A stretch of DNA of 64,000 bases, taken from the NCBI RefSeq assembly GCF_900113945.1, contig NZ_FORG01000016.1, forward strand, positions 1 through 64,000, given 5' to 3'. Shown one piece after another: positions 1,712 through 16,443 of the stretch. The stretch is from Xenorhabdus mauleonii. GTDB taxonomy: Bacteria > Pseudomonadota > Gammaproteobacteria > Enterobacterales > Enterobacteriaceae. The notes beneath the pieces were generated by a model. The model made no database searches. It saw only the letters and a program-made list of their open reading frames with translations, and was not told the DNA's origin. Position numbers and translations under genes: made by a program. Position 1 is the first letter of the stretch. Each line of letters opens with the position of its first letter.

Positions 1712-1912
1712 TTAAGGACAACGCTTGAAGAAGGTGTCGTCGTCCCGGCTTTCCATCAGGCCAGCCAGACAAAATTGAGTTAAAAGTAATTGGCAACGTG
1801 CCGTAGACAGCCCCGTCAGGGTGGAAATATCGTAAACGGATGCCCAGCCATACACGGGCACGATTTCTAAAACACAGGCGGCGGCCGTTGTCATATCTTC
1901 ATGTTTTAGCAT
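1712..1912 (-). CDS. Small winged-helix-like phage protein (66 aa)
   Basis: A 66-residue minus-strand product starting MLKHEDMTTAAACVLEIV. The segment DISTLTGLSTARCQLLLTQF followed by LAGLMESRDDDTFF has the spacing of a recognition helix and short wing, so I read it as a winged-helix DNA-binding fold. It lies between the Q-gene terminator and the methyltransferase, all on one strand. The next 150 bases toward Q contain no gene but hold that terminator. Its role in the phage is unknown. Confidence 0.6.
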   Translation of the reverse strand: MLKHEDMTTAAACVLEIVPVYGWASVYDISTLTGLSTARCQLLLTQFCLAGLMESRDDDTFFKRCP

Positions 1913-2004
1913 GATAATTTAAACCTTTTGGTCAAGTTTTATGCGTGAACACACATGTAACTCTGACCAAGGACAACAGCAAGTCTTATGTTTATTTCGG
2001 GTAT

Positions 2005-2029
2005 AAAAAAACCCACCTGTAAGTGGGTT
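2005..2029 (-). terminator. Intrinsic terminator downstream of Q
   Basis: The arms AACCCAC (2010-2016) and GTGGGTT (2023-2029) form a 7-bp stem with a 6-base loop. On the minus strand it is followed by six T residues (2010-2005). It sits 40 bases after the Q stop codon, a sensible early terminator that Q-modified polymerase would read through. Confidence 0.8.
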
Positions 2030-2068
2030 CAATCATCATTTACAATTCTGGCAAACTATCAGAATTAG

Positions 2069-2764: not shown

Positions 2765-3771
2765 CACTTAATTGCCCCTATCCCCAGCGACCTGTCCAAA
2801 AACCGAAACAATAAATCGACCTGACTGCCGTGTTTATCCTCCCAGGCCACTCTGTCGCGGTGCAGTTCGTCATGGCATGTTCGGCACAGTGGCAAGCAAA
2901 ACAGGTCATGCGCCTTAGTTCCCATGCCTCCCTGACCATGCCCGATAATGTGGTGTGGATCATCTGCCGGGCGCTGGCAAGCTATGCAGTGCTGGGATTT
3001 CACCCACTGCAGCCAGTGTTTATTGCGCCATGGCTGCAATTTGGGTGAGCGCATAAAGCTGGTGGGCGGTTCAGGGTCAATATCCGCCGTCAGTACAGTC
3101 TTAACTTGCTCGACACGCTCATGGATAATATCCTGTGAGGTTTGGGTTACCCACTTGATGTCATGTTCGCTGGTGATGCTACCAATGTTCTCATCATGAT
3201 CATCCACGCGCTGCAGGGCGCGATGGCTGATAAAGGACGGCAGCAAATCCGCCACCCCGTGAATGACCGCCCAGCCAAACAATTCCGGCCACGTGACTTG
3301 ATGATGGGATGGTAGGCGAAAATAACTCATAACGTTATACAGCACCCATTGATACCGGTTTTTCTCTGCTGCAGCCTGTATGCGATCAGAGCCTTCCCGA
3401 CATTGGTTATCATGATGCCAGCACGTCCTGACCACGCTGTTATCAAGTACGGTTACCGTCAACATGTTATGGTGGTAGCCTTCCTCGTCCTCTGCCTGAC
3501 AGACTGAAACCGTATGAGTGATATAGTGTTTCATTGCCTCGACACCGCCTGTTATTTTGATCACTCGTTCATGCTGAAAAAAAGGATGTAACCGCTTATC
3601 CTCAGCCAGCCACTGCCCTTCGGGCACCTGTCCAGATGGCATTGACTGGAGTGCTGTCGGTTCAGGTGCCAACAACATCCGGCCATGAAATCCATTCAAG
3701 AGGCTGCGACCCGGTTTGAATATCACCAGCCCCAAATCACGAAGAACATGCGGCGTCAGTAAATAATTCAT
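2764..3771 (-). CDS. DUF968 phage protein with HNH-like zinc motif
   Basis: A 335-residue protein of the DUF968 type seen in lambdoid prophages (E. coli YbcN/YdfU neighbourhood). It starts MNYLLTPHVLRDLGLVIFKPG at the ATG at 3771, which overlaps the antirepressor stop by four bases (ATGA); this is preferred over a start ten codons upstream. The C-terminal 80 residues carry CIACQRP, DPHHIIGH, LPLCRTCHDELH: two CxxC pairs and a DPHH core typical of a His-Me (HNH) finger nuclease. A recombination or packaging-linked nuclease role is likely but unproven. It sits between the antirepressor and Q. Confidence 0.75.
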   Translation of the reverse strand: MNYLLTPHVLRDLGLVIFKPGRSLLNGFHGRMLLAPEPTALQSMPSGQVPEGQWLAEDKRLHPFFQHERVIKITGGVEAMKHYITHTVSVCQAEDEEGYHHNMLTVTVLDNSVVRTCWHHDNQCREGSDRIQAAAEKNRYQWVLYNVMSYFRLPSHHQVTWPELFGWAVIHGVADLLPSFISHRALQRVDDHDENIGSITSEHDIKWVTQTSQDIIHERVEQVKTVLTADIDPEPPTSFMRSPKLQPWRNKHWLQWVKSQHCIACQRPADDPHHIIGHGQGGMGTKAHDLFCLPLCRTCHDELHRDRVAWEDKHGSQVDLLFRFLDRSLGIGAIK

Positions 3772-4448
3772 GCCAGGCACCCCACTTTGTATTCTGCCCA
3801 CAATCCTGCGACCCAGCGGATCCCCTTGGCTGTAAATCGGGTTTGTGTGAACGCATGGGCATTGGTGATATTGGTACCTGTCTTGACCTCAAATCGTTTT
3901 GCATCAATGTGGTGCTGGTAAGGCAGCATCGTGCCATTCAGTCGATACATGATCCGCTTATCCAGCAGGAATCCGCGAAATTCCGGCTCCTTCACCTCAA
4001 TCAACTTGCACACCTGTCGGAATGTCATTGAGCCGTTCGCGTTAACATACCGATCAACAAACGCCACTTTGGGAGCGGCTGCAGCCAATTGAGATTCCAG
4101 CGCCTGATTGTGTTCAGCTAAATCGGCGGCTAACCGCAATGCATCGGGTAACGTCTGAGGGATATGGGTTACTTGATGTTGTTCCAATGCCTGCCAGCGA
4201 TCGACCAGCCGGGCGGTAAACTCAGGAGAGAGTTGGGCAACAATCACGTAACTGTCCCGTTTCCCTATCCGGTATTCATCAATGGCTTGGTTCTGGTGAT
4301 TTCTGACTTCCACCAATGGTGGATGTTGAATAATTCCCCGTTCTGCCAGGCGCTCAATGGTTCTTTTCACGGAGTCATGGCGGGATTCCACTAAATCCGC
4401 TATTTCCCTGCTCGACATGGTTAAGTTGTGCGCGAGTAAATTGGTCAT
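3768..4448 (-). CDS. Phage antirepressor, Rha-type N-terminus plus KilAC domain
   Basis: A 226-residue two-domain regulator. Residues 1-95 match the phage regulatory protein Rha type (MSSREIADLVESRHDSVKRTIERLAERGII, then IDEYRIGKRDSYVIVAQLSPEF). Residues 125-226 match the KilAC/ANT antirepressor domain (MTFRQVCKLIEVKEPEFRGFLLDKRIMYR, ending FTAKGIRWVAGLWAEY). Such proteins bind DNA or repressor and counteract lysogenic repression. It overlaps the DUF968 start by ATGA and lies 4 bases after the preceding gene's stop. With a cI that lacks a self-cleavage domain, this gene is a natural candidate for the induction switch. Confidence 0.85.
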   Translation of the reverse strand: MTNLLAHNLTMSSREIADLVESRHDSVKRTIERLAERGIIQHPPLVEVRNHQNQAIDEYRIGKRDSYVIVAQLSPEFTARLVDRWQALEQHQVTHIPQTLPDALRLAADLAEHNQALESQLAAAAPKVAFVDRYVNANGSMTFRQVCKLIEVKEPEFRGFLLDKRIMYRLNGTMLPYQHHIDAKRFEVKTGTNITNAHAFTQTRFTAKGIRWVAGLWAEYKVGCLA

Positions 4449-4452
4449 GTTG

Positions 4453-4797
4453 TCACTTCCCTATCCGAGCTTTAGCCAGTAATGCATCAAAACGCTTTAA
4501 CAACAGGTTGCCTTCCGGTATCGGCCGACGTCGTTGGTGTAACGCGTCCCGGCTCGCTTTTAACCTTTCCCAATATTCCGTCATGATGTGATCTGCTCCC
4601 TGAACAACACGATAAACTCGTGCTCCCCGCTCACGGGTACCACTAACTTCCACTGCCCCAATAGCAATCAATCTGCACAGGCTGCCCGTGGCGGTGCCGA
4701 TGGGTATCCCGAACTTCTCGGTGACCATCCGTGAGGTAAATCCATCATGCCGCTTAAACTGCTGAACAATGCGATGGGGTATGGGGTTATTGCGCAT
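4453..4797 (-). CDS. Phage winged-helix protein (114 aa)
   Basis: A 114-residue protein starting MRNNPIPHRIVQQFKRHDGF. Residues 15-65 (FTSRMVTEKFGIPIGTATGSLCRLIAIGAVEVSGTRERGARVYRVV) have the helix-turn-helix plus wing pattern of small winged-helix proteins. The C-terminal half is a basic helix. It overlaps the replication-protein stop by 11 bases and precedes the antirepressor by 4 bases, so the three are co-translated. Similar small proteins occur beside replication genes in lambdoid phages; the exact role is unknown. Confidence 0.65.
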   Translation of the reverse strand: MRNNPIPHRIVQQFKRHDGFTSRMVTEKFGIPIGTATGSLCRLIAIGAVEVSGTRERGARVYRVVQGADHIMTEYWERLKASRDALHQRRRPIPEGNLLLKRFDALLAKARIGK

Positions 4798-5851
4798 CCT
4801 TCCCTCCTTGCTCTTTCGCTGCCTGCACTGCCGCCTGCTGCCAAATGCCTCGCCATGCAGCCAAGCCCGCTATCTCGCTCATGCGACCAATGCCCGCCTT
4901 GCGTGCCAGTTGTGCCGCCAGCTCTTGAATGCGGTTTGCAGGTTTCCAGCCGGTTGAAAACAGTTGCCGGAACGTAGTGTCACGCTCTACGGTGTCAATG
5001 GTGATGGCAGTTTCTCCGGCCTTCAACCAGCGACCGTTAACACAGGCCGGACGCCCTTTTTTGTGCCATTTACAGGCCTTATCGAAATACTCCGGGCAGT
5101 TCTCTGGACTGAACAGAGTTTTCAGTCGCAGATACTCACTCATCCTGTCATCGTTCGCCCACTTGGCCGTCAGGTAATCCGTGACCAGCATCAGGTCTTC
5201 CATCACGTAGCCCTCCCTCAATCGAGCACGGATATATCCCAAGGTAGTTTTACCCTCGCGGTAACGGGAACCTGTCACTTGATTGAAATAATTCAACACC
5301 TGCTGGGCGGGGTCGGGTTCCTCGAGAACCTGACAAGAGTTCTCTGCAGTAGTCTCTGTAGTAATCTCTGTTGTATTCTCTGTAAGATCAGGCCAATTTG
5401 ACCCGTTCAGAGCAGCGCAATCTGACCCGTTTGATCGTTTCATTTTGCGCTTATCGATAAGGTCATTTTGACCTGTTCGACGATGAGATTTTGAGTCATT
5501 CGACGGGGTCATTTTGACCTCATCGTTCAGCAACGCATGTTCATAATTTATCGAATAATAATTTGTGCGGTCATGATTGGATTTGTTGATCTGCTCAATG
5601 CGCAATACGTTCATCTTTTTCAAATTGGCAAACGCGCGTTTAATGGTGGACTCCGAGAAGAACGGGAACTGCTCCTGCCATTTTTCAATGGTGTTGTAGA
5701 TCCAGCGCCGTCCGTTAGCGTCGATGCCTGACTCGGTTTCGGTCAACCAGTATTGCAACTGCTGCAGAACAATCGCCTCATTCAATCCCAGCCGTACCGC
5801 TAACTCAGGATTTACCACCAATGGGCGGCTTTTTAACAATAGCGAACTCAT
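4787..5851 (-). CDS. Phage replication protein with helix-turn-helix and conserved C-terminal domain
   Basis: A 354-residue protein starting at the ATG at 5851, which has a strong GGAGGGT site and overlaps the upstream stop by ATGA; a longer frame to 5926 is less likely. Residues 10-115 (LNEAIVLQQLQYWL, FPFFSESTIKRAFANLKKMNVL) form a replication-initiator-type winged helix. A polar linker follows (about 118-185). Residues 185-275 (VLNYFNQVTGSRYREG, ARLREGYVMEDLMLVTDYL, YLRLKTLFSPENCPEYFDKA) match the conserved phage C-terminal domain (phg_2220_C) of replication-organising proteins. It probably recruits host replication machinery to the phage origin, as lambda O does. Confidence 0.8.
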   Translation of the reverse strand: MSSLLLKSRPLVVNPELAVRLGLNEAIVLQQLQYWLTETESGIDANGRRWIYNTIEKWQEQFPFFSESTIKRAFANLKKMNVLRIEQINKSNHDRTNYYSINYEHALLNDEVKMTPSNDSKSHRRTGQNDLIDKRKMKRSNGSDCAALNGSNWPDLTENTTEITTETTAENSCQVLEEPDPAQQVLNYFNQVTGSRYREGKTTLGYIRARLREGYVMEDLMLVTDYLTAKWANDDRMSEYLRLKTLFSPENCPEYFDKACKWHKKGRPACVNGRWLKAGETAITIDTVERDTTFRQLFSTGWKPANRIQELAAQLARKAGIGRMSEIAGLAAWRGIWQQAAVQAAKEQGGKDAQ

Positions 5852-6030
5852 ACCCTCCCCCCATTGCCCCGTTCTCTGTATTCCCCCACAGCCCATTGCA
5901 CAAAACTGTGGTTGGTCGGTTCCCATTTACCCAGTATTCTTATTTCATAACGAAACGGCACTGACCCACTGCCGGGGGTGAAGCGACAACGAATTTGCGC
6001 CATCCCCGTATTTTTGGTTAAACTGTCCAT
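5848..6030 (-). CDS. Small phage protein upstream of the replication gene (60 aa)
   Basis: A 60-residue product starting MDSLTKNTGMAQIRCRF. Its start is preceded by the prophage-specific leader TGTGGAGTAATTAACGC, and its stop overlaps the replication-protein start (ATGA). Both facts support real translation. The middle (FRYEIRILGKWEPTNHSFVQW) looks like a small beta-rich domain. Function unknown. Confidence 0.6.
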   Translation of the reverse strand: MDSLTKNTGMAQIRCRFTPGSGSVPFRYEIRILGKWEPTNHSFVQWAVGEYRERGNGGRV

Positions 6031-6037
6031 GCGTTAA

Positions 6038-6577
6038 TTACTCCACACATTGTTTTTGGCGCACTGACGCCTCAGACCGCGAATCTGGGGCGTTACCTTT
6101 TTCGGATGGGCAAAAATAACGATAAGACAGGCTGAGATACCCCAATGTCAGCACCTGCAGTTGTTCACCGATATAATTCAATTCTTCCCGTTCTTGTTGA
6201 TCAATCACACCATCCGCCGTGAATTCATTCCAGCGATGCGCCAACTCCCCCATTTTTCCAACCAATTCATGAAATTTGGCGGCGATATCTTCCCTATCCA
6301 CTTCCACCTCTGGGGACGGAACAAACACGCCACCCGCCCGTCTTGCCATTTCTTCCACCAGCAATAACTCACCACAAGCACGCTGAATAACCTCAGCAAA
6401 TCCGACAGGAAAGACTTGGTCCCCCTCATCACGCAGGCGGTTATAGACCGAGTTTTCGGTGATCCCCAACCATTCAGCCGCTTCCTTATAACCTCCTGAC
6501 AGTTTTGTGATCATTTGTTTAACCACTCTCGAATACCATTGAGGCTGTTTTTCGATATGCCAATGTTCATGTTTCAT
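6038..6577 (-). CDS. YmfL family phage regulatory protein (CII-like position)
   Basis: A 179-residue protein of the YmfL type (named from the e14 prophage, which also sits at icd in E. coli). It starts MKHEHWHIEKQPQWYSR at the ATG at 6577, which has an AAGGAG site; 16 more codons upstream lack one. Residues 18-55 (MITKLSGGYKEAAEWLGITENSVYNRLR) contain a helix-turn-helix. It is the second gene after cro on the minus strand, where lambda has cII, so a role in the lysis/lysogeny decision or in early transcription is probable. Confidence 0.75.
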   Translation of the reverse strand: MKHEHWHIEKQPQWYSRVVKQMITKLSGGYKEAAEWLGITENSVYNRLRDEGDQVFPVGFAEVIQRACGELLLVEEMARRAGGVFVPSPEVEVDREDIAAKFHELVGKMGELAHRWNEFTADGVIDQQEREELNYIGEQLQVLTLGYLSLSYRYFCPSEKGNAPDSRSEASVRQKQCVE

Positions 6578-6643
6578 CCCACGGCTCCTTTTATTTTTTT
6601 GTGGTTTATTTATTTCAGTCTTCAATTACTCTTTTGATTGTGT

Positions 6644-6871
6644 TTATTCTGAAAGCAGTTTTTTTTTGCTGATATTTAGCAGCTCCTTCGCTTGATATTT
6701 ACCGTCAGAAATTTTTTGAATTGTTTCGGCATAGTTAGTCTTTCCAAAGAACTCAGTCTTAGGGAGAAAGCCATTTTTTAACCATTTATACACTGCTCTT
6801 TCGCTGATCCCGCAAGCGCGAGCCACTTTGGTGATACCAATACTTTTTATTGGCTCCCTCAAAGATCGCAT
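6644..6871 (-). CDS. Cro-like repressor
   Basis: A 75-residue DNA-binding protein starting MRSLREPIKSIGITKVARACGISERAVYKWLKNGFLP, with helix-turn-helix at about residues 14-33, of the Cro/YdaS type. The start at 6871 has a GAGGT site 5 bases upstream; the longer frame to 7030 would run through the promoter and operators and into cI, so it is rejected. It is divergent from the cI-like gene at 6950 and shares two operator sites with it. It is expected to repress the cI promoter and commit the phage to lytic growth. Confidence 0.8.
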   Translation of the reverse strand: MRSLREPIKSIGITKVARACGISERAVYKWLKNGFLPKTEFFGKTNYAETIQKISDGKYQAKELLNISKKKLLSE

Positions 6872-6887
6872 ACCAACCTCATAATTC

Positions 6888-6900
6888 GTACTTTTGGTAC
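6888..6900. promoter_or_regulatory. Phage operator site O1 at the cro promoter
   Basis: GTACTTTTGGTAC, a 13-bp site whose ends are symmetric GTAC half-sites. It lies just downstream of the cro -10 element (6903-6908, read on minus), where a bound repressor would block cro transcription. The same site recurs at 6944, 9203, 9235 and 9259. Confidence 0.75.
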
Positions 6901-6902
6901 AT

Positions 6903-6930
6903 ATTATGATTGAACTGAAAGTTTTTTCAA
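6903..6930 (-). promoter_or_regulatory. Probable pR-like promoter for cro
   Basis: On the minus strand, TTGAAA (6930-6925) and CATAAT (6908-6903) are spaced by 16 bases, each one mismatch or so from consensus. Transcription would start about 25 bases before the cro ATG. O1 covers the start region and O2 lies upstream of the -35. Confidence 0.65.
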
Positions 6931-6943
6931 GTGAGCTATCATC

Positions 6944-6956
6944 GTACTTATGGTAC
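6944..6956. promoter_or_regulatory. Phage operator site O2 overlapping the cI start codon
   Basis: GTACTTATGGTAC, one base different from the other sites. The ATG of the repressor gene (6950-6952) is the centre of the operator, so repressor or Cro bound here would sit on the cI start. There is no convincing Shine-Dalgarno upstream of this ATG, as with the leaderless cI message of lambda. Confidence 0.7.
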
Positions 6957-7396
6957 AGACAGAAGAAACGCGTAAACAATTCTCCCAACGACTGGCGCAA
7001 GCCTGTGAGCAGGCTGGTCTCAATGAACATGGTCGGGGAGCAGCGATAGTTAGAGCTTTAGGGGTATCATCTAAGGCAGTGAGTAAGTGGTTTAATGCAG
7101 AATCTTTACCCAGACAGGAAAAGATGAATTCACTCGCTGATTACCTCAATGTCGACATCGTCTGGTTGCAACATGGTATTGATAATGCCAGCGATAACGC
7201 TCGCCCAGAGAAAATACAGGCTGTTAAGCCAGCAGTTAGACAACTAACAAAGGAACAAGAAGAATTATTAGAGCTATTCGATCGTTTGCCAGCAGAAGAG
7301 GCAAAGCGCTTTTTAAAAGAAATGCAGATAAAAGCAGCTCATTTTGATGCAATTTTCGCCGAGATGTTGGCGAAACGTGGCAATAAAGCAAGTTAA
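6950..7396 (+). CDS. Phage CI-like repressor lacking a peptidase domain
   Basis: A 148-residue protein. Residues 8-70 form a helix-turn-helix repressor domain (FSQRLAQACEQAGLN, IVRALGVSSKAVSKWFNAE, LADYLNVDIVWLQHG). Residues 85-148 are helical and acidic, probably for dimerisation. The S24/LexA-type self-cleavage domain of lambda CI is absent, so RecA-triggered cleavage is not expected. It is divergent from cro, with two shared operators between and inside the starts. It is the probable master repressor of the prophage, binding the five GTACTTTTGGTAC-type sites. The ATG at 6950 is the only sensible start. Confidence 0.85.
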   Translation: MVQTEETRKQFSQRLAQACEQAGLNEHGRGAAIVRALGVSSKAVSKWFNAESLPRQEKMNSLADYLNVDIVWLQHGIDNASDNARPEKIQAVKPAVRQLTKEQEELLELFDRLPAEEAKRFLKEMQIKAAHFDAIFAEMLAKRGNKAS

Positions 7397-7462
7397 CAAA
7401 AGAATTTTCATCTGTAAATCATAACGTTAAGAAATGTTATACTGATCATATTTTTTAATATA

Positions 7463-7479
7463 GGCCGTGCCTTGCGGCC
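7463..7479 (+). terminator. Short GC hairpin between cI and the GNAT gene
   Basis: GGCCG (7463-7467) and CGGCC (7475-7479) form a stem with a 7-base loop, followed only by ATTT. It may end part of the cI transcript. The rest of 7397-7660 is AT-rich with no gene and contains a possible -10 TATACT at 7438-7443 without a clear -35. Confidence 0.35.
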
Positions 7480-7660
7480 ATTTACTCTCTGTAACACTTC
7501 AATAATTCCATCCCAAAATAGTCAGTTATGTAATTACATGCATAATTCACAATTTAAGCAATTTCTGATCAAAATATTTGTAATAGTGTTTTATCGTATG
7601 AAATCTATGATGTTTTCTAACTAATGGCTTTTACTTTACCGTATTCTAAAGGGTCAAATA

Positions 7661-8749
7661 ATGGACAATTTAAAATATATTCCATTTCGTGATGTTAATT
7701 TTAATGATAGCTTTTTTGACTCCCTAAAATCAGACTATCAACATGGTTTTATTGAATGGGTTAATAAAAAAATCAATGATACAACCCAATTTTCATATGT
7801 CTTGTTCGATGAAAACAATAAAATTGATGGATTCATGTATCTTAAAATAGAAATGGGTATAGTAAATGATGTAACTCCTAATCTGTCAAAATCTAAGCAC
7901 CTAAAAATTGGAACATTTAAATTCAACCCACGAGGTACTCTTAGAGGACAACGATTTATAAAAAAAGTATTTGACCACGCCATTAATGAAAAAGTTGATG
8001 ATATATATGTAACTATATTTGATAAACATCAGTATCTTATCAAATTATTTATTATCTATGGATTCCAAGTATATGGTTCCAAACCATCTAAAAATGGTAA
8101 AGAGTGTGTTCTTGTAAGAGAAATGAAAACATTTCGCCTCACAACAAATGAATCTAATTGTTTAATAAATTATCCATATATAATCAACTCAAGCAGTTAT
8201 AATAAATATTTGTTATCAATTTATCCAGAATTTCACACTCGGCTTTTCCCAGATTCTAAGTTGGTAAACGAATCTCCAGATATTTTAAAAGACGTTTCTC
8301 ATTCAAATAGCATAAGAAAAATCTATATATGTGCAATTTCTAATGCGCTAAAGATACGTACTAATGATCAAATAGTTATATACAGAACAACCGATAGCAA
8401 GGGCCCTGCTCACTATCGTTCGGTAGTAACATCCATATGTATCGTAGAGTCAGTAACACATATCAACTCTTTTCAGAATGAAGATGATTTTGTGAATTTT
8501 TGTAAAAAATATTCTGTATTTTCAGAAGAAGAGCTCAGACAATACTACAAACTTAAAAGATACCCATACGTTATCAGCTTTACATATAATTTAGCCCTGC
8601 CAAAACGCATAACTAGAGCTACACTAATTGAAGTTGTGGGGTTAAATCCAGATGAACGTTGGAGTATAATCAAGCTAACGGATGAGAAGTTTAATAAAAT
8701 TATAGAGCTGAGTAATGTAGATGAAAGTATTATTATCAATAAAACCTGA
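7661..8749 (+). CDS. GNAT acetyltransferase fused to a PUA/ASCH-like domain
   Basis: A 362-residue two-part protein. Residues 1-150 have GNAT features: a beta strand, then RGTLRGQ (91-97) resembling the acetyl-CoA pyrophosphate loop, then LIKLFIIYGF (126-135), the usual last helix and strand. Residues 205-360 look like a PUA/EVE/ASCH-type nucleic-acid-binding fold (NDQIVIYRT at 235-243, then VTSICIVESV). The gene is clearly richer in A and T than its prophage neighbours, as expected of acquired cargo. It overlaps the next gene by 29 bases, so the two are translationally coupled. It lies between cI and the pL-like operators, where lambda carries rexAB. A toxin, exclusion or RNA-modifying role is inferred, not shown. 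Confidence 0.7.
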   Translation: MDNLKYIPFRDVNFNDSFFDSLKSDYQHGFIEWVNKKINDTTQFSYVLFDENNKIDGFMYLKIEMGIVNDVTPNLSKSKHLKIGTFKFNPRGTLRGQRFIKKVFDHAINEKVDDIYVTIFDKHQYLIKLFIIYGFQVYGSKPSKNGKECVLVREMKTFRLTTNESNCLINYPYIINSSSYNKYLLSIYPEFHTRLFPDSKLVNESPDILKDVSHSNSIRKIYICAISNALKIRTNDQIVIYRTTDSKGPAHYRSVVTSICIVESVTHINSFQNEDDFVNFCKKYSVFSEEELRQYYKLKRYPYVISFTYNLALPKRITRATLIEVVGLNPDERWSIIKLTDEKFNKIIELSNVDESIIINKT

Positions 8750-9101
8750 ATTCGCTGAAAAAATATTAAATGGCACTAAAAAGTACGAGTTCAGAAAAGG
8801 TATCTTTAAAAACACTTCCGTTCGCTCAGTTGTGATTTACGCAACAAAACCTGTTGGTCGAATAGTAGGTGAGTTTGATATTGAAACCATTATAGAAGAT
8901 GCCCCAGAAGCAGTATGGTATAAAACTTACGAATATGCTGGTATTAGCAAACAATTTTTTGATTCTTATTTCTTCAAAAAGAAAAAGGCTTTCGCTATCC
9001 AAATTGGCAAGGTAAAAAAATATAGCACTCCTATCCCGTTGGATGAATTTGGACATAATATTGTTGCCCCCCAGTCCTACAGATACCTGCCTTCATACTG
9101 A
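8721..9101 (+). CDS. ASCH domain protein, partner of the GNAT gene
   Basis: A 126-residue single-domain protein. It opens MKVLLSIKPEFAEKILNG and carries the ASCH signature GxKxxExR as GTKKYEFR (18-25), followed by a beta-rich core (VVIYATKPVGRIVGEF) and a C-terminal strand. ASCH domains are PUA-like RNA-binding folds; E. coli YqfB is an ASCH amidohydrolase acting on N4-acetylcytidine. Here the position of the YqfB catalytic Thr appears to be Glu (E23), so the same activity should not be assumed. The gene starts 29 bases inside the GNAT gene and is followed at once by a terminator, so the two form a closed unit. Confidence 0.75.
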   Translation: MKVLLSIKPEFAEKILNGTKKYEFRKGIFKNTSVRSVVIYATKPVGRIVGEFDIETIIEDAPEAVWYKTYEYAGISKQFFDSYFFKKKKAFAIQIGKVKKYSTPIPLDEFGHNIVAPQSYRYLPSY

Positions 9102-9103
9102 TT

Positions 9104-9122
9104 GCCCCAATAGGGGCTTTTT
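9104..9122 (+). terminator. Intrinsic terminator closing the GNAT-ASCH unit
   Basis: GCCCC (9104-9108) and GGGGC (9113-9117) with an AATA loop and five T residues. It begins three bases after the ASCH stop codon and separates the cassette from the pL-like promoter region. Confidence 0.85.
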
Positions 9123-9197
9123 ACACCTTACAGATAAATTTGTGACTATAATCACAATACCTCACCGGCGTAAAAATTTATTTCATTGTTAATCAAT

Positions 9198-9226
9198 TTG
9201 TTATACCAAAAGTACGATAATTTAAT
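9198..9226 (+). promoter_or_regulatory. Probable pL-like early promoter
   Basis: TTGTTA (9198-9203) and TTTAAT (9221-9226) are 17 bases apart and point toward the int operon. An operator (9203-9215) sits between the two elements and two more lie just downstream. This matches a repressor-controlled early left promoter. Confidence 0.55.
9203..9215. promoter_or_regulatory. Phage operator site OL1
   Basis: ATACCAAAAGTAC, the reverse orientation of the GTACTTTTGGTAC site with one terminal mismatch. It lies inside the pL-like promoter spacer. Confidence 0.65.
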
Positions 9227-9234
9227 TTAAATAC

Positions 9235-9247
9235 GTACTTTTGGTAC
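9235..9247. promoter_or_regulatory. Phage operator site OL2
   Basis: A perfect GTACTTTTGGTAC copy, at about the expected transcription start of the pL-like promoter, 32 bases from OL1 (start to start). Confidence 0.75.
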
Positions 9248-9258
9248 TTGTAAAATTC

Positions 9259-9271
9259 GTACTTTTGGTTC
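9259..9271. promoter_or_regulatory. Phage operator site OL3
   Basis: GTACTTTTGGTTC, one mismatch from the perfect site, 24 bases from OL2 (start to start). Together the three sites resemble a lambda-type tripartite operator. Confidence 0.65.
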
Positions 9272-9301
9272 AAAATTAACTCGTAGGGTACTGAAGCACT
9301 T

Positions 9302-9375
9302 TGCGGCTGATCAGATTTCCAGTCCAGCACCAGGGGGAACGACGCTTTCGTTCTTATTGGTCAGCCGCACTTTTT
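9302..9375 (+). ncRNA. Structured leader RNA ending in a terminator-like stem
   Basis: A perfect 9-bp closing stem TGCGGCTGA (9302-9310) with TCAGCCGCA (9361-9369) encloses an inner hairpin GAACGA (9337-9342) with TCGTTC (9348-9353), and is followed by five T residues (9371-9375). It lies in the untranslated leader of the pL-like operon. It could be an early terminator, an antitermination element like the HK022 put RNA, or a C4-type antisense RNA as in P1-like phages. The fold is seen in the sequence; the role is inference. Confidence 0.5.
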
Positions 9376-9384
9376 AGCTCTTAT

Positions 9385-9447
9385 AGATAAGGTCACTGGT
9401 TTGTTTCTTTTGTCACTCGGCACTCTCGGTAGCTGGTGGCCTTATCT
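9385..9447 (+). ncRNA. Second long hairpin in the pL-like leader
   Basis: Bases 9385-9399 can pair with 9433-9447 over about 15 positions (eight perfect, then three wobbles mixed in), enclosing a 33-base loop with a repeated CTCGG. It follows the first structured RNA by nine bases and precedes the first gene of the operon. Two tandem stems in an early phage leader recall put-type antitermination RNA. Confidence 0.45.
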
Positions 9448-9488
9448 GTAAGTGTGGAGTAGTTAAAAACAGTGTGGAGTAATTGACT

Positions 9489-9692
9489 ATGGAAATTAAA
9501 TTATTGGTAGATGAAAAGGTGATCACTACATATACAGAAGGTGAATCACCTATCAGATTTCTAGCTGACATATTCACTGCTATGGCAGTGGCGGATGAAG
9601 AAGCTCAAAAGGCTAAAAGCATCGCTAGAAAAAAACGCCTTATGGAGCTTACTGATCGATGGCTTAAAACGGATCACTCAGGTCAGCACTAA
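9489..9692 (+). CDS. Small prophage protein, first gene of the pL-like operon (67 aa)
   Basis: A 67-residue protein starting MEIKLLVDEKVITTYTEGE and ending in a basic helix (AQKAKSIARKKRLMELTDRWLK). The ATG at 9489 follows the motif GTGTGGAGTAATTGACT with good spacing of GGAG; a TTG two codons earlier is less likely. It is first after the structured leader, so it is expressed immediately on derepression. No known family is recognised. Confidence 0.6.
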   Translation: MEIKLLVDEKVITTYTEGESPIRFLADIFTAMAVADEEAQKAKSIARKKRLMELTDRWLKTDHSGQH

Positions 9693-9891
9693 TAGGATCA
9701 AGTAACCTAATCATTTGGGCTGAGATTGATTTTTTTTGTACGTCAACTGAACTGCTATTTAATTTGTATTTGAGGTTATTGATATCCTCCCGGTACACAT
9801 CGGCAGGCGTGTTTTCAAGTAAGGCAACAGATACGAAGCTAATAGCGCGTTCAATAGCTTCTAGGCGAGCTTCTAAAGAATCATTTTTCAT
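9664..9891 (-). CDS. Small prophage protein on the opposite strand (75 aa)
   Basis: An ATG at 9891 with AAGAGA upstream opens a 75-residue frame starting MKNDSLEARLEAIERAISFV and continuing as an amphipathic helix-rich protein. The composition is protein-like throughout. It runs against the plus-strand operon and overlaps the end of the preceding gene by 29 bases tail to tail. This orientation lowers confidence. No family is recognised. Confidence 0.5.
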   Translation of the reverse strand: MKNDSLEARLEAIERAISFVSVALLENTPADVYREDINNLKYKLNSSSVDVQKKSISAQMIRLLDPISADLSDPF

Positions 9892-10008
9892 TATCTTTTC
9901 TCTTGGTTGTTGTGGTGACTTCCAAGAATACCACCACCGCCTGAGGTGGTAAAACAACCAGGCATTAATTCACGTGTGGAGTAATAACGATAACCGACGG
10001 AGGTTAGC

Positions 10009-10380
10009 ATGAGTGAAAGTAGAGCAACGGTAGTACCGGATTTTTTATCCGAACTGGATGGCGGCGTATTCGAAAATAAACTGTCCGCATCATTAAACGC
10101 AGTTGCACTGGGGGTCATTAATAACGGTGGAAAAGGTAAAGTGATTGTTGAGATGGATATTGCCCGCTTGAACAATTCCATCGAAGAAAAGCGCGTCATG
10201 ATTTCCCATAAATTGAAATTTACCGCACCGACACCACGCGGAAAATCTTCAGAAGAAGATACGACTGAAACACCAATGTATGTTGGCAAGGGTGGGAAAT
10301 TATCCATCATGCAGGAAGATCAGGGTAATTTATTTTCCATTAATGGAGAGCCAGACGGAAAATTAAGAGCAGCGAACTGA
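10009..10380 (+). CDS. Conserved-type prophage protein upstream of DUF2303 gene (123 aa)
   Basis: A 123-residue protein starting MSESRATVVPDFLSELDGGVF, with a glycine-rich turn (VINNGGKGKVIVEMDI) and a charged middle rich in Glu and Thr. The start has GGAGGTTAGC directly upstream, and a GTGTGGAGTAAT copy lies 27 bases further up. It precedes a DUF2303 (YfdQ-like) gene, the position of yfdP in the CPS-53 prophage of E. coli, but I cannot confirm homology from sequence alone. Function unknown. Confidence 0.65.
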   Translation: MSESRATVVPDFLSELDGGVFENKLSASLNAVALGVINNGGKGKVIVEMDIARLNNSIEEKRVMISHKLKFTAPTPRGKSSEEDTTETPMYVGKGGKLSIMQEDQGNLFSINGEPDGKLRAAN

Positions 10381-10446
10381 TTTAATTTATTCCTATTTAA
10401 CTTTCAATATTCATTAATACTCAAAATAAAGAGTGGAGGTTTTATC

Positions 10447-11274
10447 ATGTCTCAATTAGATAGCACAGCTATTTCTCAAATTCAGGAAATGAGCATCGCC
10501 GCTTCATCTCTGGATGTAATTAAAAGTGCTAATTTCCCAGCTGCCCTTATTTCAGAAAATTATCGCATCGAAAGTTTGGAAGAGTTTGAACTTCTTCGAT
10601 ATCGTTTTCGTGGTGAAATGAAAACAACCAGTATTGATGATTTCGTCAAATATTCTATTGGTTATTCTGGTGAAGGTACCCGCTGCTTTATTGATGCGGA
10701 AAAAATGCGGGCTGAATCTATTTTTAATCTGGGCACACTTTCCCGCCCTGACCATGCAGATAATACGGCCAGCGTCACCTTAAAGAAAACGGCTCCCTTC
10801 CGTTCCTTGCTAGATATTAATGCCCGTAAACAACGGCAAAAAGATTTGGCTGAATGGCTGGAAGACTGGCATGAACATTTAACCGCGTTCGATAGTGACG
10901 GCAATGTATTAGATATCAAAAAAGCAGTCGCGGCCATTAGACGCATTACCATTGAAGCTACACAGTCCCAAGATCATGAAGAGCACGACTTCAGCGGCAA
11001 GCGCTCGGTATTAGAGAGTGTCGAAGCCAAAAGCAAAGAAGTGATGCCTGCGGTGTTTGAATTTAAATGTGTACCTTATGATGGCCTGTCAGAACGCCGG
11101 TTTAAATTGCGCTATAGCATCTTGACCGGTGATAACGTTCCAGTGCTGATACTGCGCATTGTGCAACTGGAAGCAAAAGAAGAAGCGATTGCCGGAGAAT
11201 TTCGCGATCTCCTGACAATTGAGTTTCAAGATGCCAACATTGAAACATTTATCGGTAATTTCTCAATCCGATAA
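10447..11274 (+). CDS. DUF2303 family (YfdQ-like) prophage protein
   Basis: A 275-residue protein with the layout of the DUF2303/YfdQ family of lambdoid prophages: an N-terminal helix, then YRFRGEMKTTSIDDFVKY, a FIDAEKMRAESIFNLGT stretch around residue 80-95, a central WLEDWHEHL segment and a C-terminal beta domain. The start follows a strong GGAGG site. The family is common near recombination genes in phage early-left operons; its biochemical function is not established. It is followed by a short hairpin-containing gap before an ANR-type gene. Confidence 0.75.
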   Translation: MSQLDSTAISQIQEMSIAASSLDVIKSANFPAALISENYRIESLEEFELLRYRFRGEMKTTSIDDFVKYSIGYSGEGTRCFIDAEKMRAESIFNLGTLSRPDHADNTASVTLKKTAPFRSLLDINARKQRQKDLAEWLEDWHEHLTAFDSDGNVLDIKKAVAAIRRITIEATQSQDHEEHDFSGKRSVLESVEAKSKEVMPAVFEFKCVPYDGLSERRFKLRYSILTGDNVPVLILRIVQLEAKEEAIAGEFRDLLTIEFQDANIETFIGNFSIR

Positions 11275-11365
11275 TGAGTAATAAATTAAGCGTCGTAATT
11301 GCGGCGCTTACTTAAAAATAATGTGTGGAGTAAATATCATATTTTTATTGCCATCTGGTGAATAT

Positions 11366-11626
11366 ATGACAAACGAACAATATTTTAATTTCGCCAATAA
11401 AGCTGTTTTATGTGAACAAAGTGAAAAATATATTCAAGCTGCTTTATTTTGGGGGAAAGCTGCTGATTGTGCGATGCATTATAAAAATAGAGGCTGGGCA
11501 ATATATCGCAAAGAGCACAATGAAATTAGAAATACATTGCATATTCGTCACGAAGGGGAATGCAAGAAAACAACCAATCGAAAAACGGCTGTGGTGTTAA
11601 AGGCGCATATTGATAGAAATAAATAA
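11366..11626 (+). CDS. ANR family transcriptional regulator
   Basis: An 86-residue protein starting MTNEQYFNFANKAVLCEQSEKYIQAALFWGKAADCA, the typical two-helix pattern of ANR proteins (AraC negative regulators such as Aar), which bind and inhibit AraC/XylS-type activators. A longer frame starts at 11321 but consists of hydrophobic residues read through the GTGTGGAGTAAA leader motif, so the internal ATG at 11366 is preferred. It overlaps no neighbour and ends 16 bases before the next gene's start. Phage copies may tune host or phage activators. Confidence 0.72.
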   Translation: MTNEQYFNFANKAVLCEQSEKYIQAALFWGKAADCAMHYKNRGWAIYRKEHNEIRNTLHIRHEGECKKTTNRKTAVVLKAHIDRNK

Positions 11627-11642
11627 AATACAGGTGAATATC

Positions 11643-11873
11643 ATGAAAAACACGTTGGAAGATTTAAATAACCATCTCTTTGCTCAATTGGAGCGATTGT
11701 CTGACGAAGATATTTCCGGTGAAGAATTAGAAATGGAAATCAGGCGCGGAAAAGCGATATCTGGTGTGGCAGTGCAGATTGTTAATAACGGTAAATTGGC
11801 ATTAGAGGCTCAACGAGCCTTCGGTTCTGGCGAGATCCCTGCAACCCCCAAATTTTTGGAGGCTCGGAAATGA
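11643..11873 (+). CDS. Small prophage protein coupled to an HNH nuclease (76 aa)
   Basis: A 76-residue protein starting MKNTLEDLNNHLFAQLERL, rich in Glu and Leu, with a long helix (ISGEELEMEIRRGKAISGVAVQIVNNGKLALEAQ). The ATG at 11643 has AGGTGA upstream. Its stop overlaps the next gene by four bases (ATGA), so it is coupled to the HNH endonuclease gene. Proteins of this kind beside HNH genes are frequent in lambdoid phages; the function is unknown. Confidence 0.65.
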   Translation: MKNTLEDLNNHLFAQLERLSDEDISGEELEMEIRRGKAISGVAVQIVNNGKLALEAQRAFGSGEIPATPKFLEARK

Positions 11874-12469
11874 AGAAAGCTCTGTTTTTCTATTCAGATG
11901 AAATGAAGCTGTGGATGAAGGAAAATTATAGGTTGGTACGACACCAACTTACAGATGCGTTTAATGTTCAATTTAACACGAACCAAAGCAGGGAAAGTGT
12001 TTGTGGACTACGTAAGCGATTAGGGTTACGTGTTAGGCAATCTGCTACATGGGAAAAAGGATATAAACCCATCCATACCGGCACTAAAGGCGTACTAAAA
12101 GCCACTAGCGGCTCATTCAAAGCAGGTCACGATGCGATTGGAAATAAGCGCGAGGTAGGAGCAGAACGTATTAACTCATGTGGCTACATGGAAATAAAAA
12201 TCGCCAATCCCAGCGTTTGGCGACTGAAGCATCTGGTTATTTGGGAAGAGCATCATGGCGAACGCTCTAAAAACCACGTAATTACTTTTAAAGATGGCAA
12301 TCCCCTAAATTGCCAAATTGATAACTTGGTATTGATTACCCGTACAGAGAATACCATTGTCAATAACACCAACAGAAAACTAAAAGCACCTGCAGAATTT
12401 AAATCGGTGTTAATCAATTTGGTAAAAATAGAACAGGTCATCGCAAGCAAGAGCGCCAATAACGCATAA
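11870..12469 (+). CDS. HNH endonuclease (HNH_3 type)
   Basis: A 199-residue protein. Residues 1-60 form a basic DNA-binding head starting MKKALFFYSDEMKLWM. Residues 110-165 carry the HNH_3-type nuclease core: WRLKHLVIWEEHHGE supplies the first His pair, and ITFKDGNPLNCQIDNLVLI supplies the Asn and Asp. This is the pattern of small phage HNH and homing-like nucleases. It follows its coupled partner by an ATGA overlap. It could be a free-standing homing nuclease or assist phage recombination. Confidence 0.8.
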   Translation: MKKALFFYSDEMKLWMKENYRLVRHQLTDAFNVQFNTNQSRESVCGLRKRLGLRVRQSATWEKGYKPIHTGTKGVLKATSGSFKAGHDAIGNKREVGAERINSCGYMEIKIANPSVWRLKHLVIWEEHHGERSKNHVITFKDGNPLNCQIDNLVLITRTENTIVNNTNRKLKAPAEFKSVLINLVKIEQVIASKSANNA

Positions 12470-12510
12470 CCAAAATTAATACCTTTTAATGAAATTAAGG
12501 AAAAATAAAA

Positions 12511-12981
12511 ATGAACAACACTGCAATTGATATAGCCGCAAGATTCAAAATGGCTTCAAAACTAGCTAAAAAAATGGGTGGAAATGAAATTACAATTAAC
12601 TGCGATGAATTAATAAAACTTTGTGAGGCAACAAAGAAACTCGCTGAATATAAAGACATGGAGCCTATGGCTCATTTCATTATCGGTGGCGATGGATTTA
12701 TTGGAGAAGCTCTTCACGAATATAAAAATGATTCTGACGTATTTCCCCTCTATCGCCATCCCAGCAAAGAGTCACTTAAATTTACTGCCGAAATAGAATT
12801 AACCGATTTCGTGAATGGAAGTAATGGTAAAGCGATAGCATATGGCAAGATATTCAATGACATTAAAAAACGTTTTTCAGATGGAACTGAAATAAAAACA
12901 TCCCTGATAACCAATCCTGAAACCTATAAAACTGATGGGTATATAAAAACTCAAAACTCTATTTATAAAATTAGGGAGTAA
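12511..12981 (+). CDS. Prophage protein of unknown function (156 aa)
   Basis: A 156-residue protein starting MNNTAIDIAARFKMASKLAKKMGGNEITI. An N-terminal helical half is followed by PMAHFIIGGDGFIGEALHEYKNDSDVFPLYRHPS, reminiscent of the LYRHP motif seen in many small lambdoid proteins of the left operon, and then a beta-rich tail. It is followed 6 bases later by a DUF551 gene. It probably belongs to the non-essential accessory set of the early-left operon. Confidence 0.6.
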   Translation: MNNTAIDIAARFKMASKLAKKMGGNEITINCDELIKLCEATKKLAEYKDMEPMAHFIIGGDGFIGEALHEYKNDSDVFPLYRHPSKESLKFTAEIELTDFVNGSNGKAIAYGKIFNDIKKRFSDGTEIKTSLITNPETYKTDGYIKTQNSIYKIRE

Positions 12982-12987
12982 AGAACA

Positions 12988-13323
12988 ATGATAAGCATCG
13001 ATAACGCACAAAATAATATTGGTTTGCCTGGGCACATTGACGATGGACGGGAGTGGGCAGATTGGTTATTGAAAAAGGCTGGTGAATGCAAGGCAACTCA
13101 GGGGATCCCATGGGTAAGTGTTCAGAAAAGAATGCCTGAAACCGATGAACCTTTTCCCACTTTGTGTCTTGTTTATATTTCCTTAGGTTCACCCCCTCGC
13201 GCAGATTTTAGCTACTGGGATGCCGACGAGAAACATTGGCAGCAACATGAAAACGATAAAATAACGCACTGGTGCTATTTGGAAGATATCCCCGCGCCAG
13301 TCATTGGGGTGAATCATGGTTAG
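12988..13323 (+). CDS. DUF551 domain prophage protein
   Basis: A 111-residue protein. The DUF551 signature is clear in the second half: WVSVQKRMPETDEPFPTLCLVYI (42-65), then DFSYWDADEKHW and ITHWCYLEDIPAP at the end, the usual closing motif of this domain. DUF551 proteins are common in the accessory part of lambdoid early-left operons and have no established function. It overlaps the following gene by 8 bases. Confidence 0.8.
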   Translation: MISIDNAQNNIGLPGHIDDGREWADWLLKKAGECKATQGIPWVSVQKRMPETDEPFPTLCLVYISLGSPPRADFSYWDADEKHWQQHENDKITHWCYLEDIPAPVIGVNHG

Positions 13324-13627
13324 TAACTCATTCCACCTCACACAGATAATAGCTTCGGCTTGGGGTGATCCTTCGGATATCACCGATGCAGTATGGCATG
13401 CCGGATACCGCAAGCCAGAACGGGAAGCAAAGGAAATTGCCGCACTGACTATCGACATTATGGAGGGAGTGCCCGATGGGGAGCCCTATTCAGCAAGACC
13501 AAAAAATCTGGATGATATTCTTAGTTTAGAACTGAAAAACATTGTTTTTGATACGGTGTGGGATGGAAAGGCGACGCCGGCGGGAGTGGCTCGAATCATT
13601 TTGAGGTGTGGTTATCAAAAGGGATAA
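13316..13627 (+). CDS. Prophage protein of unknown function (103 aa)
   Basis: A 103-residue acidic protein starting MVSNSFHLTQIIASAWGDPSDI. Its start lies inside the DUF551 gene (8-base overlap), which suggests coupled translation. The last 40 residues (LKNIVFDTVWDGKATPAGVARIILRCGY) look like a compact helical domain. No family is recognised. It is the last accessory gene before excisionase. Confidence 0.6.
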   Translation: MVSNSFHLTQIIASAWGDPSDITDAVWHAGYRKPEREAKEIAALTIDIMEGVPDGEPYSARPKNLDDILSLELKNIVFDTVWDGKATPAGVARIILRCGYQKG

Positions 13628-13715
13628 TAAAGAATCAAAACCATTAATCAAAGGCTGTTAAAAGTAGCAGCCCAATATTGTTAAGTTATCCTTAATTTAA
13701 GGTATGGGAAGAGCT

Positions 13716-13958
13716 ATGGCACGAACTCAAACACTTAGGGAATGGGCTGAACAGGAATTTTCTGAACCAGTTCCAAGCTACCAGACTCTAATACGTTATG
13801 CAAAAAATGGAATGATTTCCCCCAGACCATATAAAGCCGGAAGATGCTGGAGAGTTGAACTAAATGCCAGATTTATTGGATTTATAGAAAAACCTATTAT
13901 CAAGAAAAATGATGATCCCAGACTTATGAGGATTTTAGAAGATGGCTCGTCCACGTAA
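13716..13958 (+). CDS. Phage excisionase (Xis)
   Basis: An 80-residue small basic protein starting MARTQTLREWAEQEFSEPVPSYQTLIRYAKNGMI, followed by SPRPYKAGRCWRVELNARFIG. This is the winged-helix pattern of lambda-type excisionases: helix, recognition helix, then a wing with the Gly-Arg-Trp-Arg motif. It bends attachment-site DNA and directs Int toward excision. The ATG at 13716 (GGGAAGAG upstream) is preferred to the one four codons earlier. It overlaps int by 17 bases, as in many xis-int pairs. Confidence 0.8.
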   Translation: MARTQTLREWAEQEFSEPVPSYQTLIRYAKNGMISPRPYKAGRCWRVELNARFIGFIEKPIIKKNDDPRLMRILEDGSST

Positions 13959-15069
13959 ATATAATGTCAATGTCCCCGGCTTATCCTGTTACACCGATGC
14001 CAGAACAAAAAAAATCTACTGGCGTTACAAGCACCCTGTTACGGGGAAGTTTCATGGCTTAGGGGATGATGAAGAAGCCGCGAGAACCATTGCTGTAGAA
14101 GCAAACTCTCGTTTAGCTGAGGTCAAAATGACCCAGCTAATAAAAGTAAAAGATGAAATTAGCCAAAAAATAAGAAAAGGAATTTCAGTAACAAGCTGGT
14201 TAGATGAATATTTAAAAATTCAGCAAGAACGACTAAATGCGGGTGAAATAAAATTAAACACCCTAAAGCAAAAAATTGCTCCTGTAGAAGCATTCAGAAA
14301 GCACTGCGGTAATGAAAATATAGACAGCATTCAAACTAAAGATATTGCAATCTTGGTGGATGAATATAAAGAACGCGGGCAAGCGAGAATGGCTCAAATT
14401 ATTCGCATGGTTTTAATTGACGTATATAAAGAAGCTCAACATGCCGGGGAAGTTCCTCCCGGATACAATCCAGCGAGAGCAACAAAAATGCCTATAAATA
14501 AAGTGAAGCGCCAACGCCTGAGCTTAGAAGAATGGGAAGTTATATTCAATAAAGCTGGGGAAACTCAGCGCTACTTACAAAATGCGATGTTATTAGCTCT
14601 GGTAACTGGTCAACGCTTAGGGGATATTGCTAAATTGCGATTTGATGACGTATGGGATGAGCATTTGCATATTATTCAGGAAAAAACAGGAAGCAAGCTG
14701 GCAATCCCTTTAGATCTTAAGTGTGAAAAAATAAATTGTACCTTACGAGATGTAATAGCGCGTTGCAGAGACAGAATATTAAGCCCTTACATGCTCCATT
14801 ATCACCACACAACTTCACAAGCCAAACGAGGCGGTCAAGTTTCCGCCAATGCTATCACCGCAGGTTTCCAGAAATCCCGTGATAAAACAGCCCTAAAGTG
14901 GGATAAAGGCACTCCTCCTAGTTTCCATGAACAACGATCTCTGTCAGAACGTCTTTATCGTGAGCAGGGTATAGATACAAAAATATTGTTAGGGCATAAG
15001 AGTCAGGCAATGACGGATAAATACCATGATGATCGGGGTAAAGATTGGGTTATTTTGGTGGCGAAATAA
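13942..15069 (+). CDS. int: Phage integrase, lambda-type tyrosine recombinase
   Basis: A 375-residue integrase. Residues 1-65 are the arm-binding domain (GLSCYTDARTKKIYWRYKHPVTGKFHGLG), 80-175 the core-binding domain, 185-370 the catalytic domain. All catalytic residues are visible: Arg225 in TGQRLGD, Lys near 248, His329 and Arg332 in HEQR, His352 in LGH, and Tyr361 in DKYHDD. The gene ends 120 bases from the 3' end of icd, facing it. This is the same attachment gene as phage 21 and e14 in E. coli. It was transcribed last in the pL-like operon. Confidence 0.92.
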   Translation: MARPRKYNVNVPGLSCYTDARTKKIYWRYKHPVTGKFHGLGDDEEAARTIAVEANSRLAEVKMTQLIKVKDEISQKIRKGISVTSWLDEYLKIQQERLNAGEIKLNTLKQKIAPVEAFRKHCGNENIDSIQTKDIAILVDEYKERGQARMAQIIRMVLIDVYKEAQHAGEVPPGYNPARATKMPINKVKRQRLSLEEWEVIFNKAGETQRYLQNAMLLALVTGQRLGDIAKLRFDDVWDEHLHIIQEKTGSKLAIPLDLKCEKINCTLRDVIARCRDRILSPYMLHYHHTTSQAKRGGQVSANAITAGFQKSRDKTALKWDKGTPPSFHEQRSLSERLYREQGIDTKILLGHKSQAMTDKYHDDRGKDWVILVAK

Positions 15070-15085
15070 CGGTTATTTTTTGAAC

Positions 15086-15189: not shown

Positions 15190-16443
15190 TTACATATGAG
15201 AGATAATTGCATCACCGAACTCGCTACATTTCAGCAGCTTAGCATCATCCATCAGGCGTTCGAAATCGTAAGTCACGGTCTTGGCAGCAATTGAACCTTC
15301 CATTCCTTTAACGATTAAGTCTGCGGCTTCGAACCATCCCATGTGGCGCAGCATCATTTCAGCAGAAAGGATCACAGAACCTGGGTTAACTTTATCCTGA
15401 CCGGCATATTTAGGCGCTGTACCGTGTGTCGCTTCAAATAGTGCGCACTCATCACCAATATTGGCACCAGGAGCGATACCAATACCACCTACCTGTGCAG
15501 CCAAGGCGTCAGAAATGTAATCACCATTCAGGTTCATACAAGCAATTACATCATATTCTGCTGGGCGCAGCAGGATTTGTTGCAAGAAAGCATCAGCGAT
15601 AACATCTTTGATGATGATTTCTTTTCCGTTTTTCGGATTCTTGATCTTAACCCACGGACCGCCATCCAGCAGCTCCCCACCGAATTCGGTACGAGCCAGC
15701 TCATAACCCCAATCTTTAAAGGCGCCTTCAGTGAATTTCATGATGTTGCCTTTGTGAACCAATGTCACGGATTCACGATCATTATCAATGGCGTATTCAA
15801 TTGCAGCGCGCACCAAACGTTTAGTCCCTTCTTCTGAGCAAGGTTTCACGCCGATACCACATTGTTGAGGGAAACGGATTTTGGTGACACCCATTTCATC
15901 CTGCAGGAATTTGATGACTTTGTCCGCTTCCGCTGAACCCGCTTTCCATTCAATGCCCGCATAAATATCTTCGGCATTTTCACGGAAAATGACCATATCA
16001 GTCAGTTCAGGCTGTTTAACAGGGCTTGGCGTACCTTGATAGTAACGAACAGGACGCAAACAAACATACAGATCCAATTGCTGACGCAGAGCTACGTTCA
16101 AAGAACGGATACCGCCGCCGACTGGTGTTGTCAGAGGGCCTTTGATGGCAACACGGTATTCACGGATCAGATCCAGTGTTTCATCTGGCAGCCACACATC
16201 TTTGCCATAGATTTGGGTGGATTTTTCACCCGTATAGATTTCCATCCAAGAAACTTTGCGCTCACCGCTATACGCTTTCTGAACTGCTGCATCAACAACT
16301 TTCAGCATGACCGGCGTAACATCAACACCAATGCCATCCCCTTCGATATAAGGGATTACTGGGTTATTCGGAACATTTAATTTACCTTTGGCATCAATGG
16401 TAATTTTTTTACCTTCCGCCGGAACAACTACTTTGCTTTCCAT
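15190..16443 (-). CDS. icd: NADP-dependent isocitrate dehydrogenase
   Basis: A 417-residue, full-length Icd (E. coli 416). It oxidises isocitrate to 2-oxoglutarate and CO2 with NADP in the TCA cycle. Visible are the substrate loop [26 protein letters not shown] region with the serine phosphorylated by AceK (RSLN, about residue 114), the metal-binding DVIADAF and [13 protein letters not shown]-type segment, and the NADP-binding [16 protein letters not shown]. The C-terminus is [13 protein letters not shown]. Prophages at icd supply a replacement 3' end, so these last codons may be phage-derived. The gene is complete in this window. Confidence 0.97.

Follow-up and report, generated by a model that had tools for sequence, protein, structure and literature searches.

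Type II GNAT toxins, as represented by TacT and AtaT, are single-domain proteins that acetylate charged tRNA and are encoded together with a ribbon-helix-helix antitoxin lying upstream. Another group of GNAT proteins is treated in a paper that we take to be by Bell et al. It classes fusions of GNAT and EVE domains with an ASCH partner as predicted toxin-antitoxin systems and describes prophages of beta- and gamma-proteobacteria as a common location of those without a PIN domain. It also cites a previous suggestion that bases are acetylated, and states that no module had yet been tested (PMC7641849, 2020). In this study, a gene pair of this kind was analyzed in a 64,000-nucleotide stretch of the Xenorhabdus mauleonii genome (assembly GCF_900113945.1, contig NZ_FORG01000016.1, positions 1 to 64,000), hereafter referred to as the window. 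Gene 1 (7661..8749, forward strand, ATG start, 362 amino acids, PHROG 6345) and gene 2 (8721..9101, forward strand, ATG start, 126 amino acids, PHROG 3136) overlap by 29 bases in the list of open reading frames. The cassette is not new: it is an already catalogued candidate phage-defence or toxin-antitoxin pair, and the window copy is a further, clearly delimited member.

PADLOC lists the pair as the two-gene candidate defence system PDC-M11. Both window proteins match it over their full length (gene 1 against PDC-M11A at residues 3-360, E-value = 2.1e-128; gene 2 against PDC-M11B at residues 1-124, E-value = 1.2e-49), and the genes are adjacent, adjacency being assumed to be part of the definition. 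However, PDC-M11 is listed as a candidate only, and several of the PDC-M11A models are 444-501 positions long, of which the window protein matches just the C-terminal part. Two relatives (L172 and L173) fill two or three of these longer models, and a PDC-M11A match was found in all 25 proteins of the gene 1 alignment, window protein included. The pair also has names in GenBank, where record PV340567.1 (Escherichia phage PhiR47_2) labels it 'GevT toxin' and 'GevA antitoxin'. The same two genes lie there in the same order and in the same slot between cI and kil, with 57.5% and 64% identity to the window proteins, while the overlap is 23 bases instead of 29, the phage backbone and the repressor differ, and the toxin/antitoxin naming is a GenBank label only. 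No papers on GevT/GevA or PDC-M11 were among the matches listed by our literature searches, outside of which lay preprints and most subscription papers, and no published mechanism or experimental test of the pair was found in them.

The domain composition of both proteins agrees with the classification. The sequence-only reading had divided the gene 1 protein into a GNAT half and a PUA/EVE-like half, and both were recovered by structure modelling and fold comparison, as a GNAT domain at about residues 1-158 and a PUA/ASCH-type domain at about residues 177-354; weak Pfam matches to GNAT and EVE were obtained for its relatives. The modelled fold of the C-terminal half is of a type predicted to bind nucleic acid, as that reading had expected. 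ZmASCH was the sole ASCH-type fold among the listed fold matches of this half, and no sequence match to gene 1 was present in the PDB up to an E-value of 5. The gene 2 protein had been read as a single ASCH domain, which was confirmed by Pfam (ASCH, 26.9 bits vs. a cut-off of 21.2) and by its closest solved fold, ZmASCH of Zymomonas mobilis (PDB 5guq/5gus). Compared with the (PIN)-GNAT-EVE and ASCH systems described in PMC7641849, the window pair shares the N-terminal GNAT domain, the C-terminal EVE/PUA-type domain, the ASCH operon partner and the location in a prophage; an AAA_17 neighbour accompanies some relatives of the pair, while the window member has neither an N-terminal extension nor an AAA_17 gene.

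Resemblance to the type II GNAT toxins is limited to the combination of a GNAT effector with a small partner protein. The window effector has 362 amino acids and a second folded domain, and its partner is an ASCH protein encoded downstream. These two differences, in domain number and in the kind of partner, led to the rejection of membership in the TacT/AtaT group.

The position of the pair resembles that of rexAB in lambda, since both are flanked by cI and the left operator and are transcribed in the direction of cI. No Rex names occurred among the domain and family search matches of either protein, to which a direct comparison with RexA or RexB was not added. Upstream of the pair is a CI-type repressor gene (6950..7396, forward strand, 148 amino acids). 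It had been called cI-like, and this holds for the DNA-binding half, which carries a helix-turn-helix domain, while no peptidase domain match was found in the domain search. A terminator-like hairpin (7463..7479, forward strand) separates the repressor gene from the pair, and a second one (9104..9117, forward strand; GCCCC-AATA-GGGGC, followed by TTTTTA) closes it. Operator-like sites were found on both sides of this unit. On the right (6888..6955), GTACTTTTGGTA occurs at 6888 without mismatch and GTACTTATGGTA at 6944 with one mismatch, and on the left (9204..9270) sites of the GTACTTTTGGTA type with 0-1 mismatch occur at 9204 (minus strand), 9235 and 9259. With 0-1 mismatch, the GTACTTTTGGTA pattern has 31 sites in the 5.1-Mb genome, against 76 for a control pattern read backward, and 5 of the 31 are concentrated in the 2.4 kb around the repressor and the pair; with up to two mismatches, 12 sites were found in the window (4.6 expected). 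Sites of this pattern are not in themselves rare, so the weight lies on the clustering and not on the number of sites. Because operator-like sites flank the unit of repressor and pair, the pair is within the immunity region and occupies the position of rexAB, as had been proposed from the sequence. The description of an AT-rich pair with its own terminator was also accurate: G+C content is 0.29-0.36 over the pair and 0.37-0.53 in the remaining 1-kb windows of positions 1-18000. Terminator-like sites numbered five in the 4-kb region (mean of 2.1 in shuffled sequences), and promoter-like sites showed no signal above chance there (17 vs. 16.0 in shuffles).

Whether the two genes are neighbours elsewhere had been put forward as a check, and the outcome favours the proposal. 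The 176 fetched loci are redundant, with 95 distinct proteins for gene 1. In 165 of them BLAST matched gene 1, and in 162 of these it also matched gene 2, at a distance of at most 628 bases; in 154 of the 162 the genes touch or overlap. Two weak gene 1 matches found by profile only (L012, E-value = 1.9e-4; L176, E-value = 9.8e-4) were left out of the pair counts, for they had no BLAST match to either gene. The three exceptions with gene 1 alone are a remnant of the GNAT half (L011) and a single contig cut at its end (L029/L157). Conversely, gene 2 was present in eight loci where BLAST did not match gene 1, including a fusion (L173) and a contig end (L067). When viral contigs were scanned with gene 2 alone, gene 1 was adjacent in 45 of 49 loci, and the other four comprise the contig end in L067, a MORN fusion (L077) and two loci without detected gene 1 (L078 and L079, the latter not read by eye). 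The scan with the gene 1 alignment, which shares many contigs with the gene 2 scan, gave 164 relatives; 80 of them were retained, and 79 of these 80 had gene 2 alongside. In 77 of the 80, gene 2 is on the same strand; in L146 and L161 it is near gene 1 on the opposite strand, and L157 lies at a contig end. After trimming gene 1 at its first stop, the overlap was 23 bases in 61 and 29 bases in 14 of the 77 same-strand loci, and gene 1 is interrupted in the remaining two. These analyses show a conserved operon of overlapping genes, in which a GNAT domain is joined to a PUA/ASCH-type nucleic-acid-binding fold and followed by an ASCH partner, sited next to phage repressors and in other cargo slots. 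Because the family is conserved, chance is excluded as the origin of the gene pair. An AAA-type kinase gene lies near both of the opposite-strand pairs.

In L173 (1009-2931), a single open frame of 641 codons contains an N-terminal extension followed by GNAT, EVE-like and ASCH domains, with PDC-M11A and PDC-M11B matched consecutively. This single-frame fusion suggests that the two proteins work together. Pfam detected no PIN domain in the fusion, and a weak PIN match was present in L171 only.

Both genes are intact in 155 of the 162 paired loci, while gene 1 is incomplete beside an intact gene 2 in seven and the reverse was seen in none. However, two of the seven incomplete copies are cut by contig ends (L010 and L175) and two are on one contig (L057 and L160), so that four independent lesions remain: a missing matching 5' end in L009, a frame break in L057, and early stops in L093 and L139. 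Gene 1 is 2.9 times longer than gene 2, and the asymmetry of loss has a chance probability of about 0.3. Thus the direction of gene loss was rejected as proof of toxin and antitoxin roles, there being only four independent cases with a length bias. A further case is provided by the archaeal phages psiM2 and psiM100 (L185 and L080): an annotated insert with most of gene 1 is missing from psiM2, where the tail of gene 1 and an intact gene 2 are kept. Such retention would be expected if gene 2 is harmless alone. The psiM100 insert begins in 125-base repeats. The ratio of nonsynonymous to synonymous substitution rates (dN/dS) between the window and L001 is 0.10 for gene 1 and 0.03 for gene 2; both look constrained, but dS is saturated. 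As dS was also not computable in four of six comparisons for gene 1 and three of six for gene 2, the ratio was set aside as evidence.

The pair, a widespread candidate for prophage defence, occurs in phages, plasmids and bacterial genomes. In phage records, some of which are duplicates, gene 1 was matched in 16 and gene 2 in 27 of 50,697, and 32 of 72,556 plasmid records had gene 1. With the X. mauleonii genome itself counted and partial or weak matches included, gene 1 occurred in 6 of 99 related genomes and 11 of 398 genomes of the phylum, and gene 2 in 8 of 369 genomes of the class. Among 5426 complete E. coli genomes the pair was matched in 311, and in 307 of them with at least 80% coverage, which gives a wide reach to the questions of what GNAT-EVE proteins target and how ASCH proteins restrain them; in L166, one of the four genomes below 80%, the genes are adjacent, uninterrupted and merely divergent. 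The rexAB position had been described as a slot for varied cargo, and the locations in relatives fit this description. Pairs lie in the lambda-type cI-kil slot of Escherichia phage PhiR47_2 and, in the same arrangement, of phage 4A7. In E. coli prophages of the P2/186-like type the pair is found between CI and integrase, accompanied there by one additional gene. In one of these prophages (L026:5216-5998), a gene with a weak DUF3644 match (E-value = 2.4e-5) is located between CI and the pair. Other locations are the gpA-gpQ slot of P2-like phages (SopEPhi and an E. coli prophage), a site upstream of terminase in Lactobacillus prophage Lj965 (L023), a prophage region in a Rahnella plasmid record, and a Vibrio plasmid and a Pseudomonas plasmid in which an AAA-type ATP-binding gene adjoins the pair. 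Small kinase genes of the AAA_17 type are found beside the pair in several relatives, for example at L028:5438-5947, with a PADLOC VakA match (E-value = 4.8e-8). For the window itself, identity is mostly settled, as a known type of cargo in the rexAB slot.

Taken together, we consider that the pair is probably a prophage-borne two-protein defence module of the toxin-antitoxin type, with the GNAT-EVE protein as toxin and the ASCH protein as antitoxin, sited for expression in the lysogen. In the lysogen, gene 2 would hold gene 1 inactive, probably by direct contact, a view supported by the overlap of the genes, by their fusion in L173 and by loci that have kept gene 2 only. Infection by another phage might then upset the balance between the two and release gene 1, although the trigger is a guess. 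The C-terminal ASCH-like half may guide the GNAT domain to nucleic acid or nucleoprotein, for which tRNA or another RNA of translation is the likeliest guess, tRNA by analogy with TacT/AtaT. Acetylation might stop growth, so that the invading phage would not multiply.

The alternative that survives best is a nucleic-acid modification module, in which gene 1 would modify DNA or RNA, either of the phage or of the host, by acetylating a base that the ASCH protein then reads or guards, shielding the phage from restriction without killing the cell. It is in keeping with the binding of modified bases by PUA, EVE and ASCH domains reported in the literature. However, the operator-like sites group the pair with the repressor, inside the immunity region and not in the lytic operons, and the link to restriction-modification in PMC7641849 concerns the PIN-bearing class, not PIN-less GNAT-EVE, so we regard this explanation as unlikely.

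Less likely still, the ASCH protein could be an active ribonuclease like ZmASCH and the effector of the pair, which gene 1 would regulate or help to target. Tyr47 and Ser128 of ZmASCH are indeed kept as Tyr40 and Ser119 of the gene 2 protein, both of them invariant throughout the 27 aligned ASCH proteins, but ZmASCH Lys53 is not conserved at the aligned position, which is Gly46 (K or R stands one position later in many rows). In addition, the ASCH gene is retained in psiM2 and in several streptococcal phages where gene 1 was not matched, which would be surprising for a free nuclease toxin. It is equally improbable that gene 1 is a protein acetyltransferase tuning lysogeny or a host factor, with gene 2 as an accessory RNA-binding subunit and no role in toxicity or defence, for although the GNAT fold would suit it, the pair occurs in unrelated phages, plasmids and slots, as is typical of self-contained cargo and not of the lysogeny control of one phage.

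A pair that acetylates and deacetylates was also considered. YqfB, an N4-acetylcytidine (ac4C) amidohydrolase, has a Thr-Lys-Glu triad with Thr24 as nucleophile, and its Thr24Ala mutant is inactive (PMC6972931). At this motif position, placed by eye, the gene 2 protein has Glu23, which is invariant in all 27 aligned ASCH proteins. The doubt already raised about a simple acetylate/deacetylate model was justified, and a YqfB-type pair was rejected because the Thr nucleophile is replaced by Glu.

Within the toxin-antitoxin reading, the C-terminal half of gene 1 and gene 2 resemble sister ASCH domains, which is a weak clue to how restraint might be achieved. An ancestral ASCH domain could have been duplicated and one copy fused to GNAT. 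The free copy would then neutralise the toxin, either as a competitor for the modified nucleic acid that both recognise or because it pairs with the toxin's own domain or displaces it. We hold this only tentatively and think it rather doubtful, yet it is the part worth following. Concrete hypotheses on structure can be drawn from the fusion in L173 and from the weak kinship of the domains. If the sister-domain idea were true, the solo ASCH proteins of phages, streptococcal ones among them, would be decoy antitoxins against such systems. Genes of the gene 2 family without gene 1 were observed in phages at L081:2992-3369 and L078:3986-4387, as possible decoy antitoxins, and one of the two belongs to a streptococcal phage, where it closely precedes the terminase region. 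The X. mauleonii genome has a second, distant stand-alone ASCH gene (G000:C70:10678-11052, L021; 174 amino acids), with no gene 1 found alongside. On a phage contig (L077:2570-4366), the ASCH domain stands at the C terminus of a protein with MORN repeats, 598 amino acids in length.

Several further features were noted around the pair and its relatives. Of the 56 loci submitted to ARAGORN, three (L023, L081 and L159) gave tRNA-like genes; flank length varies from locus to locus. In Lj965 (L023:3307-3883), four annotated tRNA genes lie directly upstream of the pair, with ARAGORN unsure of the first; in the streptococcal phage L081 a tRNA-like gene is near the solo ASCH gene, and in L159 one is located about 2.4 kb downstream of gene 2. 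Neighbouring tRNA genes were rejected as a clue to the target. In the window, a Cro-like helix-turn-helix gene (PHROG 35, transcriptional repressor, E-value = 7.8e-14) is divergent from the CI-type repressor gene on the reverse strand; its coordinates, 6644..7030, are outer limits of the open reading frame, and the real start is probably internal. A lambda-type integrase gene of the same prophage (13942..15069, forward strand) adjoins the 3' end of an icd-like gene (15190..16443, reverse strand), which was named by eye from its translation, and this neighbourhood (13942-16443) suggests integration of the prophage at icd.
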